The notes under the pieces: model-generated
What the model saw: the letters and a program-made list of their open reading frames with translations, nothing else
The model's database searches: none
Told to the model about the DNA's origin: nothing
Made by a program: the position numbers and the translations under genes
Part shown: piece by piece, positions 2,462 to 7,514 of the stretch
Position numbering within the stretch: position 1 is the first letter of the stretch
Layout: every line of letters starts with the position of its first letter
Assembly (NCBI GenBank): GCA_022450155.1
Contig: JAKUQR010000006.1
Location: forward strand, 1-64,000
Origin: Gammaproteobacteria bacterium
GTDB taxonomy: Bacteria; Pseudomonadota; Gammaproteobacteria; Arenicellales; UBA868
Direction: 5' to 3'
DNA length: 64,000 nt

Positions 2462-2497
2462 CTCCCAACACCCCACTAAAACCGTAAACCTCTCTGC
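2462..2497 (-). repeat. 36-base upstream motif, copy 1
   Basis: Matches 2948-2983 at 28 of 36 positions, sharing CACTAAAAC, GTAAA and CTCTGC. Both copies lie upstream of a minus-strand gene (MORN lipoprotein and NTF2-like protein), so this may be a duplicated promoter or leader segment. Spacing to the start codons differs (about 60 and 19 bases). Confidence 0.45.
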
Positions 2498-3593: not shown

Positions 3594-3698
3594 ATTGAAA
3601 ATAGTTACAACTAGCTTATTGGCTTAGCTTAATTTCAGACGTTTCATCCCGCTATCTTAAACCCAAATAACAGCCAGGACACCGCGATCTGTCTAAGT

Positions 3699-3968: not shown

Positions 3969-4475
3969 ATGGAAAATCGAAAAACTCTGGTGAGCGACGA
4001 TTTCATCGTTCCTTCCGAACTGGCGACAGCTCAGTTCAGATTACGGATGTTGACCATTAACGATTTGATCAAAGATTATGATGCTGTGATGTCTAGCGTT
4101 GACCATCTTCGAAATACCTACAGCCTCATCTCTGGTTCTAACTGGCCCATGGGACTTACACTTGAGGAAGATCTCATTGACCTTGGTTGGCACCAGAGGG
4201 AGTTTATGCTTCGTTATTCTTTTGCTTACACGGTAATGACACTGGATGAAACACGATGCCTTGGTTGTGTCTACCTGGATCCTAGCCGGAAAAGCAGCTT
4301 TGATGTGGTGATTTCAATGTGGGTGAGAGCATCGGAGCTGGGCAACGGTTTGGATTCGGATCTCTACGGTACTGTCAAAAAGTGGATCAGCGAAGTTTGG
4401 CCCTTCGCTAAGTCCGCCTATCCCGGCAGGGAAATCACAATCGAGGAATGGAAAAACATTCCAAATGACCTTTGA
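3969..4475 (+). CDS. GNAT-like N-acetyltransferase
   Basis: A 168-residue protein. The N-terminal half contains F-R-L-R-M-L-T-I-N-D-L-I-K-D-Y-D-A-V. The C-terminal half has F-A-Y-T-V-M-T, then C-L-G-C-V-Y-L-D-P-S, then a segment equivalent to strands 4-5 of the GNAT fold. The usual Q/R-x-x-G-x-G/A pyrophosphate-binding loop is not clearly present, so acetyl-CoA binding is not certain. A terminator hairpin follows 65 bases downstream, making the gene monocistronic. I am confident of a GNAT-superfamily relationship and not of the substrate. Confidence 0.65.
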   Translation: MENRKTLVSDDFIVPSELATAQFRLRMLTINDLIKDYDAVMSSVDHLRNTYSLISGSNWPMGLTLEEDLIDLGWHQREFMLRYSFAYTVMTLDETRCLGCVYLDPSRKSSFDVVISMWVRASELGNGLDSDLYGTVKKWISEVWPFAKSAYPGREITIEEWKNIPNDL

Positions 4476-4540
4476 TAAATCAAAAACCAGGTAAATGATG
4501 GCTGTAATCGGTCGAGAGTGAAGCCGACCGGACTAACAAA

Positions 4541-4558
4541 GCCCCGCTTCTGCGGGGC
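4541..4558 (+). terminator. Rho-independent terminator
   Basis: Seven-base GC arms 4541-4547 and 4552-4558 around a TTCT loop, followed by GTTTCTTATTT. It lies between the GNAT gene and the convergent ABM-like gene. Confidence 0.8.
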
Positions 4559-4582
4559 GTTTCTTATTTGCCCGCTGCAGGC

Positions 4583-4867
4583 TTACATTTCCCAGATAAC
4601 AGTGCCGCCTTTGATATCGGGCGGACTGGTCATGAATTCAGCCATCTGTGCAAAAATGCCCTGGATTGCCGGCTGTGCTGCCGTTGCGGATGCCTCGCTG
4701 TCATAGCGTGCGACGATCATTCCCTGTCCTTCGCTAATTTCGCACGTGTGGACAGTTTCAAGGCCCGCTACGGCTTTCAGATCATCTCGCAACGTCTCGT
4801 TGGCCTTCGCGAGAAATTCATCAAGCCGGCTGGGGTCAAACCCATAGGTGGTTACTCTGAAGTACAT
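4583..4867 (-). CDS. Antibiotic-biosynthesis-monooxygenase-like (ABM) small protein
   Basis: A 94-residue protein. The start at 4867 follows AAGGAGAA at ideal distance; the frame could extend upstream but that part has no family match. It begins MYFRVTTYGFDPSRLDEF and contains G-L-E-T-V-H-T-C, G-Q-G-M-I-V-A-R-Y-D-S and A-x-x-P-x-I-Q-x-I-F. This is the beta-alpha-beta repeat of dimeric ferredoxin-like ABM domains. Relatives include heme- or cofactor-free quinol monooxygenases and non-catalytic proteins. It is monocistronic and converges on the terminator at 4541. Confidence 0.75.
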   Translation of the reverse strand: MYFRVTTYGFDPSRLDEFLAKANETLRDDLKAVAGLETVHTCEISEGQGMIVARYDSEASATAAQPAIQGIFAQMAEFMTSPPDIKGGTVIWEM

Positions 4868-5222
4868 TCGTCTTCTCCTTTGGAAATTGGTGAACCAGAC
4901 ACTACCAGATTTGGAATAGTAGAAAAAGTAGACGGCTGACACTAACACCTGACGTCGTGATCTCCGGACTAAAATCGGTGTAAAACCGAAACTGTCGCTA
5001 AAAAAATAGAATGTTGGTCAGCCCATAGCTGGATGAGATATACAAATTCCGGAACAGTTTCACCCCATATATGATCAATGGCTGGGGCCACATATTGTTC
5101 AATTATGTGGTGCAATTAATGAGGTTGTAAGAACCATCACTGAACAGTTGTCCAAGTATATTATGGGATCTATAGGCCCGATAGAGGTTGATTTAAATTA
5201 ACTTAATGGAGGAGGGTTGATA
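4868..5222. other. Intergenic region upstream of the Cys-rich gene
   Basis: AT-rich, without a convincing coding frame. It must contain divergent promoters for the ABM-like gene (minus) and the Cys-rich gene (plus). GGAGGAGGG at 5206-5214 is a strong ribosome-binding site for the ATG at 5223. Confidence 0.5.
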
Positions 5223-5618
5223 ATGAAGAAGATGCTGATTGTATTGTTTGGAGTGTTGGCCTTTCAGAGCTATGTCTTTGCCGAAACGTGAGAAGACCGG
5301 GCCGCAAATAAAGCTGCTTGGAGTGCCGAAAACCCAGATGATCCTGCCTGCTGGAATCGGCCTGTCGGATGGAATACTGACAATCCTTGGATTGTGGGGA
5401 AGGGTGATCACGAGGCCTATTACGGACTTGCCAACTGTTGTAGGGCCTGCGCCGAAAATGACACCTGTTACAAAGATGGTTGGCAGGATAAGGCTGCAGC
5501 GTTAGCGACATGTGAGTTGTGGGGTATTGATCAATTTAGACATGTTTGTGTGTTAGAAACAGACTGCGATGATTACGAACCTGGCCCGCCATGGTGGAAA
5601 GCTACAACGGCTTTATAA
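5223..5618 (+). pseudogene. Secreted Cys-rich protein gene interrupted by an in-frame TGA
   Basis: A strong Shine-Dalgarno (5206-5214) precedes ATG 5223, which encodes a signal peptide: MKKMLIVLFGVLAFQSYVFA, with cleavage after A-x-A-like F-A. The frame then meets TGA at 5289-5291 and continues open in the same frame to TAA at 5616-5618, 131 codons in all including the TGA. The downstream part contains eight Cys (P-A-C-W, N-C-C-R-A-C, D-T-C, A-T-C, H-V-C, T-D-C) and many Trp, like a disulfide-rich periplasmic protein. I do not recognise the family. The likely reading is a recent nonsense mutation. Readthrough or a selenocysteine codon is less likely, as I see no clear SECIS hairpin after the TGA. 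Confidence 0.6.
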
Positions 5619-5727
5619 TCGATTTTAAAGGGATTTGCGCCGACTGGTCAGCCGCGAAAATTATATGCCCCGCTTTCCCAGATGTAGATTATTGCCGCCC
5701 TCACTGGGAGCAGATAGAGCAGTTACC

Positions 5728-5997
5728 TCAACATTCTTCCAGGAAGGTAATTTCTGGTGGTGAGGTTATCACGCCGCTGTCTTGAATTGCCTGTCTATCC
5801 GGCGAGGTAAAAAACTCAACAAACACGTCTTTCGACGGTGCAGTGCCAATGACATAGCTGGTGTTCGGGTCATCTGGCTTGCGATAGGCTCTCGCATTGA
5901 TGCCAGCAGCAACTCGTTGATCTTCAAGTCCATCGAACTTCGATTTCCATTGATCAAAATCTGAAACCTGGGCTGATATCACCACGGTGATACTCAT
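5728..5997 (-). CDS. Small dimeric alpha/beta-barrel (ABM-like) protein
   Basis: An 89-residue protein starting MSITVVISAQVSDFDQWKSKF after AAGGAG. The strand/helix pattern, the W-K-S-K-F-D motif in the first helix, A-Y-R-K-P-D-D-P-N and the F-F-T-S-P-D-R-Q helix start resemble small ABM/EthD-like proteins that dimerise. No catalytic residues can be named. It is separated from the next minus-strand gene upstream by a terminator hairpin, so it has its own promoter. Function unknown. Confidence 0.65.
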   Translation of the reverse strand: MSITVVISAQVSDFDQWKSKFDGLEDQRVAAGINARAYRKPDDPNTSYVIGTAPSKDVFVEFFTSPDRQAIQDSGVITSPPEITFLEEC

Positions 5998-6047
5998 AGG
6001 ATGCTCCTTCTATAGATGATGCGATAGTTATACATTGATATATAAAT

Positions 6048-6070
6048 TAAGCCCCGACTGGCGGGGCTTA
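6048..6070 (-). terminator. Rho-independent terminator hairpin
   Basis: Arms 6048-6056 and 6062-6070 form nine pairs around ACTGG. On the minus strand the stem is followed by an A/T-rich tract (ATTTATATATC). It ends the transcript of the ABM-like gene at 6107-6490. Confidence 0.75.
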
Positions 6071-6106
6071 TGACGAGGTTGGTGTATTAAATTAACACAT
6101 CACCAG

Positions 6107-6490
6107 CTATCCATTCATGGAATGAATGACAGATCCCCCACCGATGAGTACTTTCCCATATTGCATTAAGGTGCCCGCAAAAGCTTCAAGACTTTCCCAT
6201 TGCATGGCTTGTGCCATGTGCTGTTCAATGCCATCCGCTTCGACATAGACCTCGTTGATGCAATACAAAATATTACCGGTTGTACCTTTACTTGGATCCA
6301 ACAGGTCGTTGGCTTCTTCACCCTTGGCCACGTGATAGTCGACAAGATGGATTCCGTTGCCAGCCTCCAGCGAGTGGGTTTCTTTCATCCAGGCCGCATG
6401 CGTCGCAATGATCTCTTCGACTGGGCCGGTATTTTCAGCGGGTACAAGCAGTGCGAAATTGAAGGTCACCTGTCCGTTTTTCGAAGCCAT
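6107..6490 (-). CDS. ABM-superfamily small protein
   Basis: A 127-residue protein. The start at 6490 is preceded by AAGGAGATA; the longer frame to 6556 lacks a comparable site. It starts MASKNGQVTFNFALLVPAEN and contains A-T-H-A-A-W-M-K-E-T-H, L-L-D-P-S-K-G-T-T-G-N-I-L-Y, I-N-E-V-Y-V-E-A-D-G-I and H-M-A-Q-A. This order resembles longer ABM-type dimeric alpha/beta-barrel proteins that carry a conserved His in the second helix. Monocistronic. The role is not known. Confidence 0.65.
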   Translation of the reverse strand: MASKNGQVTFNFALLVPAENTGPVEEIIATHAAWMKETHSLEAGNGIHLVDYHVAKGEEANDLLDPSKGTTGNILYCINEVYVEADGIEQHMAQAMQWESLEAFAGTLMQYGKVLIGGGSVIHSMNG

Positions 6491-6685
6491 GTCTATCTCC
6501 TTAGGTTTTATTGTGTGGGGAAAAAATCTAATGTTCCCAAAGATCCAATAATGCATACTTCAGTGATCAGCATAGCAGAAGTTCAAGGTATGTGAATAAA
6601 TTTGGTATCCGGAAGTGACAAAAGTAAACTGAGATCTAGATAAAATAGGTTAAACAATCTTTTGGTTGGTAATACAATTGCAGGC

Positions 6686-6868
6686 ATGAACGCAAATCTA
6701 GAAAAACAACTGACCTATGAAGAGGAACGGCAGATTGCGCAGAAGAACAACACTTATTTGCCGAAAAGGAAACTCAATCGATGGATGATCATGGGCGTGC
6801 TCCTGATGGAGTTCAGCGCAGCTGCAGGACTCCTATACCTGGCGTATAGAATCTATACTGCTTCTTGA
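6686..6868 (+). CDS. Small single-span membrane protein, 60 aa
   Basis: A 60-residue protein starting MNANLEKQLTYEEERQ. A charged N-terminal segment ends in P-K-R-K-L-N-R, followed by one hydrophobic helix (W-M-I-M-G-V-L-L-M-E-F through G-L-L-Y-L-A-Y). The positive-inside rule places the N-terminal domain in the cytoplasm. The ribosome-binding site is weak; an in-frame TTG at 6662 would add eight residues. No family recognised. Confidence 0.5.
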   Translation: MNANLEKQLTYEEERQIAQKNNTYLPKRKLNRWMIMGVLLMEFSAAAGLLYLAYRIYTAS

Positions 6869-7033
6869 CCATTGCTGACTATAAATCGAAGGAACAACCA
6901 ATTGGGTAATGGTCTCAGTACAACCTAAACAGAGAACCTCGGTTGTCTATGGGTTAGACTTCTAGACGGAAAGCGGAATTTGCATTTGATACAGCGCTAT
7001 CTCACCGATAGCGGCCAGCTTGAGGGAGAACTA

Positions 7034-7351
7034 ATGGCTAAATTCATGAACGTTGTTCGGTATGTTGTAAAAGCCGATTGCCACGACGAATTTATTGAGC
7101 TCCACTCTAGCTCTGTAAAAAAGGGAGATGGCTTATATGGACGATTAGATGGAATGCTCAGTCAATTCCTGATCAAGACCGGCGAATACAGCTATTGTTT
7201 TGTGGCTATTTGGGAGTCAGAGAGTGCTTTGGCTGAAGCACGACCTTTGATGATAGAGAGCCTGAACTCAATGCGTCATGCGCTGGAGGAGATCACATCG
7301 GAGTTGGGTGTTACTGATGCGGTTTCCGGTTCGGTCGTTTTCGAGCAATAG
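7034..7351 (+). CDS. ABM-like small protein
   Basis: A 105-residue protein. ATG 7034 follows GAGGGAGAA; the upstream extension to 6980 is not needed. MAKFMNVVRYVVKADCHDEF, then Y-S-Y-C-F-V-A-I-W-E-S, then M-I-E-S-L-N-S-M-R-H-A-L-E-E match the beta-alpha-beta arrangement of ABM-domain proteins. The tiny membrane protein gene at 7368 follows after 16 bases with its own strong ribosome-binding site, so the two are likely co-transcribed. No catalytic assignment is possible. Confidence 0.65.
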   Translation: MAKFMNVVRYVVKADCHDEFIELHSSSVKKGDGLYGRLDGMLSQFLIKTGEYSYCFVAIWESESALAEARPLMIESLNSMRHALEEITSELGVTDAVSGSVVFEQ

Positions 7352-7367
7352 TTATTGAGGAGGCACT

Positions 7368-7454
7368 ATGGGCACTTTCTTAAGTTTCGTGTTTGCGCTA
7401 GCCTGCTGGGCTTCGATCCTGATCGCAATGGCGTATATATTTCCCAGTACTTAG
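7368..7454 (+). CDS. Tiny membrane protein, 28 aa
   Basis: A 28-residue frame, MGTFLSFVFALACWASILIA followed by M-A-Y-I-F-P-S-T and a stop. It is essentially one transmembrane helix. GAGGAGG ends at 7363, five bases before the ATG. It follows the ABM-like gene by 16 bases and precedes a 12-bp terminator, so the pair forms a compact operon. The strong ribosome-binding site and operon position argue that it is real. Confidence 0.65.
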   Translation: MGTFLSFVFALACWASILIAMAYIFPST

Positions 7455-7484
7455 AATCGTCTTTGTAGACTGTTGTAAACAAAA

Positions 7485-7514
7485 CCGCGGTAGAACTTTT
7501 GTGTTCTACCGCGG
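7485..7514 (+). terminator. 12-bp terminator hairpin
   Basis: Arms 7485-7496 and 7503-7514 are perfectly complementary around TTTTGT. It closes the 7034-7454 operon. Confidence 0.75.

Follow-up and report, generated by a model that had tools for sequence, protein, structure and literature searches.

A premature stop inside an otherwise open bacterial frame can be met in several described situations. Bacterial pseudogenes produced by a recent nonsense mutation have premature stops in a frame that is still recognisable, sense codons at the same positions in intact relatives, and little further decay. Bacterial selenoproteins, which depend on a bSECIS hairpin and on SelA, SelB and SelC, exhibit a lone in-frame TGA, also within Cys-rich frames, and in the codes where TGA stands for Trp, e.g., that of Mycoplasma (table 4), TGA occupies Trp positions. 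The locus described here, located in a stretch of 64,000 nucleotides (the window), resembles all of these systems in the features just listed. The analysis points, with high confidence, to a young pseudogene of an ordinary kind, which does not differ notably from the known bacterial nonsense-mutation pseudogenes. Its parent family, made up of secreted Cys-rich proteins, is narrow, unnamed and lineage-restricted, and matched no named family.

The frame starts with an ATG at position 5223, preceded by a Shine-Dalgarno sequence that was read directly; codons 1-22 translate as a signal peptide, codon 23 is a TGA, and the 108 sense codons that follow contain eight Cys and end at a TAA. The initial annotation had reported the Shine-Dalgarno, the signal peptide, the in-frame TGA and the open eight-Cys frame, all of which are borne out; the downstream frame is indeed open, even though its length, given as 109 codons, has to be corrected to 108. 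Since the same reading frame is open as genes in other genomes (G007 and G029), it represents more than a chance open frame. The relatives that can be aligned are L006 and L009, both from G007, L007 from G029, and a paralogue, L002, located on contig C21 of the genome of the window (G000; 70% identity, E 2.6e-46). The G007 frames share 82-83% identity with the window across all 108 residues, and the G029 frame 55% over residues 1-85. At the nucleotide level, blastn aligned window positions 5155-5667 with L006 (83%) and 5162-5669 with the paralogue L002 (76%). A Pfam search with the mature part retrieved nothing up to E 1. The features of the locus are the following:

5155-5222, + strand, upstream stretch including AGGCCCGATAGAG, common to the G007 relatives and the paralogue, with the 5' limit of homology
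5208-5216, + strand, Shine-Dalgarno GGAGGAGGG, from direct reading
5223-5288, + strand, signal-peptide codons 1-22, MKKMLIVLFGVLAFQSYVFAET, from translation and alignment with four relatives
5289-5291, + strand, premature TGA at codon 23, TGG (Trp) in L006, L009, L007 and L002
5292-5615, + strand, what remains of the mature Cys-rich domain (108 codons, eight Cys), with a new Cys at codon 73 and the C-terminal Cys of the relatives lost
5616-5618, + strand, second premature stop, TAA, AAA in L006, L009, L002 and L007 (L007 being poorly aligned here)
5619-5667, + strand, 3' part of the ancestral gene beyond the TAA, homologous to L006 and L002, the last codons of the relatives being absent after about 5667

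In the DNA alignment, the codon corresponding to 5289-5291 is TGG in all four alignable copies, three of which (L006, L009 and L007) are open genes; as L006 and L009 are two G007 contigs that are 98% identical over 2.5 kb, the four copies amount to three independent sequences. The count leaves aside the G001 copy (L008), which is gapped at codon 23, and the G003 copy, which is devoid of a leader. The residue aligned with the TGA is therefore Trp in 4/4 homologues and Cys in none of them, which argues against the recoded codon that had been envisaged as one of two readings of the TGA.

The TGA had also been regarded as the only defect of the gene, and this view does not hold, since the TAA at 5616-5618 is premature as well. 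At this position (codon 136) an AAA is present in L006, L009, L002 and, within a poorly aligned portion, L007. Moreover, the homology of the window fades near 5667, before the stop of the relatives, and the sequence beyond is divergent. The relatives end in ...AWCK-stop (L006 and L009) or ...AWCE-stop (L002), and L007, L008 and L022 also close with CK; the window copy has lost this C-terminal Cys and carries a Cys at codon 73, where L006, L009, L002 and L007 have Phe, so that its eight Cys are the net outcome of one loss and one gain. The copy thus harbors multiple disabling changes: the TGA, the TAA replacing AAA, and the lost 3' end. On this basis, the ancestral gene would have encoded a secreted protein some 158 residues long that carried a signal peptide and eight Cys, the latter probably paired in disulfides outside the cytoplasm. 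A TGG codon lying just past the likely cleavage point of the signal peptide would then have become TGA, the AAA near the 3' end would have turned into TAA, and the last few codons would have been replaced or lost. The order of these events is conjectural. Translation would end after 22 residues, and the protein is presumably no longer produced.

As to the age of the damage, a first polarised count over the whole alignment gave synonymous to amino-acid-changing ratios of 6:19 for the window branch and 11:10 for the G007 branch, with 33 ambiguous sites (Fisher p = 0.068), and the window branch showed no departure from neutral. Neutral evolution as read from this count was rejected, most of the changing sites being embedded in the badly aligned 3' part. 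Five restricted variants were then considered, in which the ratios for the window and for G007 were, respectively, 5:6 and 9:7 (codons 2-111, both outgroups), 5:5 and 9:7 (the same codons without codon 23, both outgroups), 10:10 and 15:11 (codons 2-111, L002 as the only outgroup), 11:13 and 16:14 (codons 2-151 less 112-121, L002 only), and 11:11 and 16:14 (the latter set without the two stops, L002 only). No difference between the window branch and the intact branch of G007 emerged in any of them (Fisher p from 0.70 to 1.0). On the window branch, changing substitutions make up less than the neutral share when L002 is the only outgroup (binomial 0.005-0.011; 0.005 for 11 changing out of 22), whereas with both outgroups this is no more than suggestive (0.055-0.082; 0.082 for 6 out of 11). 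The dS between the window and L006 is 0.53. As amino-acid changes are not in excess on the window branch, the breakage looks recent: the gene probably still worked over most of the branch, and the stops came late. This agrees, together with the TGG of the relatives, with the very recent nonsense mutation that had been proposed as the other reading of the TGA. The number of changing substitutions, lower than under neutrality, is explained by a recent knock-out, but a gene that is still in use would account for it too; it is the presence of a second stop, along with the loss of the C-terminal Cys, rather than the substitution counts, that tells a young pseudogene from a gene used through readthrough.

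The UGA might be read as Trp or as another residue by a suppressor tRNA, under a changed code or by leaky near-cognate decoding, yielding a little full-length protein; the TGA sits exactly at a Trp codon, UGA is known to leak to Trp in bacteria, and the signature of purifying selection on the window branch, seen in some of the counts, would fit as well. However, unlike in the codes where TGA stands for Trp, RF2 (prfB) is over cut-off in the genome of the window and, among the 42 non-overlapping ORFs of the window that reach 200 aa, TGA is the commonest stop (24, against 10 TAA and 8 TAG). In addition, 47 tRNA-like matches of this genome were read with ARAGORN, 38 of which were called as tRNAs and 9 remained uncalled; a single Trp tRNA, with anticodon CCA, was found, and no UCA anticodon occurs among the 38, a set that is incomplete (it contains no Phe or Ile tRNA). 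Even a product of readthrough would stop at the TAA at 5616-5618, without the conserved C-terminal Cys, and this whole group of explanations appears very improbable. A more specific version, in which a trickle of Trp inserted at the TGA by near-cognate decoding gives a throttled secreted protein with a shorter, alternative C-terminus at 5616-5618 and keeps the frame under selection, seems slightly less credible again. An even smaller chance is given to a sequencing or assembly error that would leave the gene intact in the organism. The genome is a draft of 77 contigs, and either one of the two stops may be erroneous, but two independent substitutions to stops and a divergent 3' end would have to be wrong within one gene, which is unlikely, and the paralogue is frameshifted too.

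The single in-frame TGA inside an otherwise open Cys-rich frame is also what would be expected if UGA encoded selenocysteine by means of a bSECIS hairpin placed just downstream. Nevertheless, differently from known bacterial selenoproteins, the relatives have Trp in place of Cys at the TGA, and no component of the machinery is over cut-off in the draft. SelA gave no match in this genome, in a search that retrieved matches in 4 of 14 known control genomes, E. coli included, only one of them over cut-off; SelB gave seven matches, none over cut-off (2/14 controls over). For tRNA-Sec, the scoring covered 150 of 421 first-look candidates and gave 17 matches, none of which reached the 47-bit gathering score (5/14 controls over). 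The best one (44.3 bits) is a tRNA-Ser; ARAGORN called 14 of the 17 as ordinary tRNAs and the remaining three as no tRNA, and for one of these three Rfam at gathering scores was negative as well. Since the genome is 95.5% complete, the relevant genes might lie on a missing contig, and a sel gene or a suppressor tRNA could still have escaped the draft and the incomplete tRNA set. The region after the TGA does not favour the idea either. The bacterial SECIS is described as having a guanosine in a small apical loop (PMC1088965); in the hairpin predicted after the TGA, the apical loop reads AAAUAAA, which is devoid of G and hence unlike that of a bSECIS, and the hairpin does not fold clearly better than shuffled sequences (z of -0.85, -0.19 and +0.48). 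Rfam on positions 4000-7500 gave five matches, all under the gathering scores. Selenocysteine is therefore left with a probability close to nil, and the recoding proposal as a whole finds no backing in the residue of the relatives, in the sel genes, in the 38 tRNAs read or in the hairpin loop, the TAA downstream adding to this. A candidate recoding event is thus closed, and what is left is ordinary genome decay.

The family to which the young pseudogene belongs is narrow. The genome of the window (3.2 Mb) harbors, besides the paralogue, three additional matches with E between 0.02 and 0.08. With this genome counted, matches at E <= 0.001 were retrieved in 4 out of 100 related genomes and, when the alignment of five members was used as a query, in 5 of the 33 genomes of the same taxonomic family. 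Sampling 369 genomes across the class gave two matches, i.e., the genome of the window and a weak one in G380 (E 7.7e-4); the latter, located within an ORF of 327 aa that presumably corresponds to a lipoyl synthase, was discarded as due to chance. The collection of named genomes contained four loci, all in MAG records: two in PBDS01 (Proteobacteria bacterium), one in JAAZYQ01 (Gammaproteobacteria bacterium) and one in NTKC01 (Candidatus Thioglobus sp. MED-G25). No match was found for the family in Pfam, NCBIfam or PHROGs at E < 0.1, nor in the PDB at E <= 1; weak matches of single members (Pfam, E 0.12 and 0.33; PHROGs, E 0.17) were taken as chance. Among viral contigs, 430 stretches fitted a pattern and none was confirmed. 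AlphaFold models of four open relatives had a mean pLDDT of 37.8 and were set aside. From its sequence, the intact protein may at most be described as disulfide-rich and extracytoplasmic.

Within the genus of the window, represented by four genomes, four copies were found, none of them in G002, and three of the four are damaged. The paralogue L002 is one base short just past the start codon and has one extra base near codon 30; L022, in G003, has lost leader and start; L008, in G001, is the sole open copy of the genus. Two of the three copies other than that of the window being broken, copies in this genus decay readily. When the 64-kb window was compared with the sequences retrieved around the other copies, no nucleotide match at E <= 1e-5 was obtained apart from the roughly 0.5-kb stretch and some short repeats, which suggests that the gene moved as a small unit. 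The secreted Cys-rich proteins form a narrow family whose genes seem prone to rapid movement and loss. A match of 42 bp (81%) joins L006 1978-2019, just after the open G007 copy, to window 5840-5881, which belongs to the small gene downstream. It hints weakly at a location common to both genomes and possibly represents a remnant of that small gene beside the G007 copy; of the two genes, the genome of the window and G007 may each be losing the one retained by the other. The window gene at 4586-4867 has a relative in G029 (34% identity), which also adjoins the Cys-rich gene, in a different orientation.

The leader (window 5223-5282, compared with L007 and L008) shows stronger conservation than the rest of the protein, i.e., the mature part, synonymous sites included: the synonymous comparison between the window and L007 at codons for identical residues gave 2/16 in the leader vs. 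22/46 in the mature part. Leader swapping or a constraint at the DNA level are possible reasons.

Several repeats were observed around these genes. In G029, a direct repeat of 49 bp, 100% identical (L007 407-455 and 1863-1911), flanks the Cys-rich gene and its small neighbour, and in the window two copies of a 42-bp direct repeat (1294-1335 and 2499-2540, 83%) lie between small genes. The repeat-rich region raised the idea of an integron; the integron integrase model gave eight matches, none over cut-off, in what is a weak test, as no control genome passed either. For a 60-aa frame at the left edge of the window that resembled an integrase by eye, neither Pfam (E 0.1) nor PHROGs (E 0.01) gave a match. 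A dispersed repeat near CCCAACATCCCACTAAAACTGTAAACC occurs at window 2464-2490, with a more diverged copy at 2951-2977. It has 18 matches with up to three mismatches in the genome of the window (the 2951 copy uncounted) and is present in 6 of the 33 genomes of the family, a reversed control pattern giving 0. Among 33 distinct copies retrieved, 20 have an ATG-started frame of at least 50 codons beginning no more than 150 bp away on one side, against 5 on the other side, which indicates that the repeat is located mostly just upstream of genes, several of which have signal-peptide-like starts. By eye, a second motif, around GCTATCTTAAACCCAAATA (window 3641-3670; L120 and L126), is also found near gene starts, and in L126 it stands beside a relative of the first repeat.
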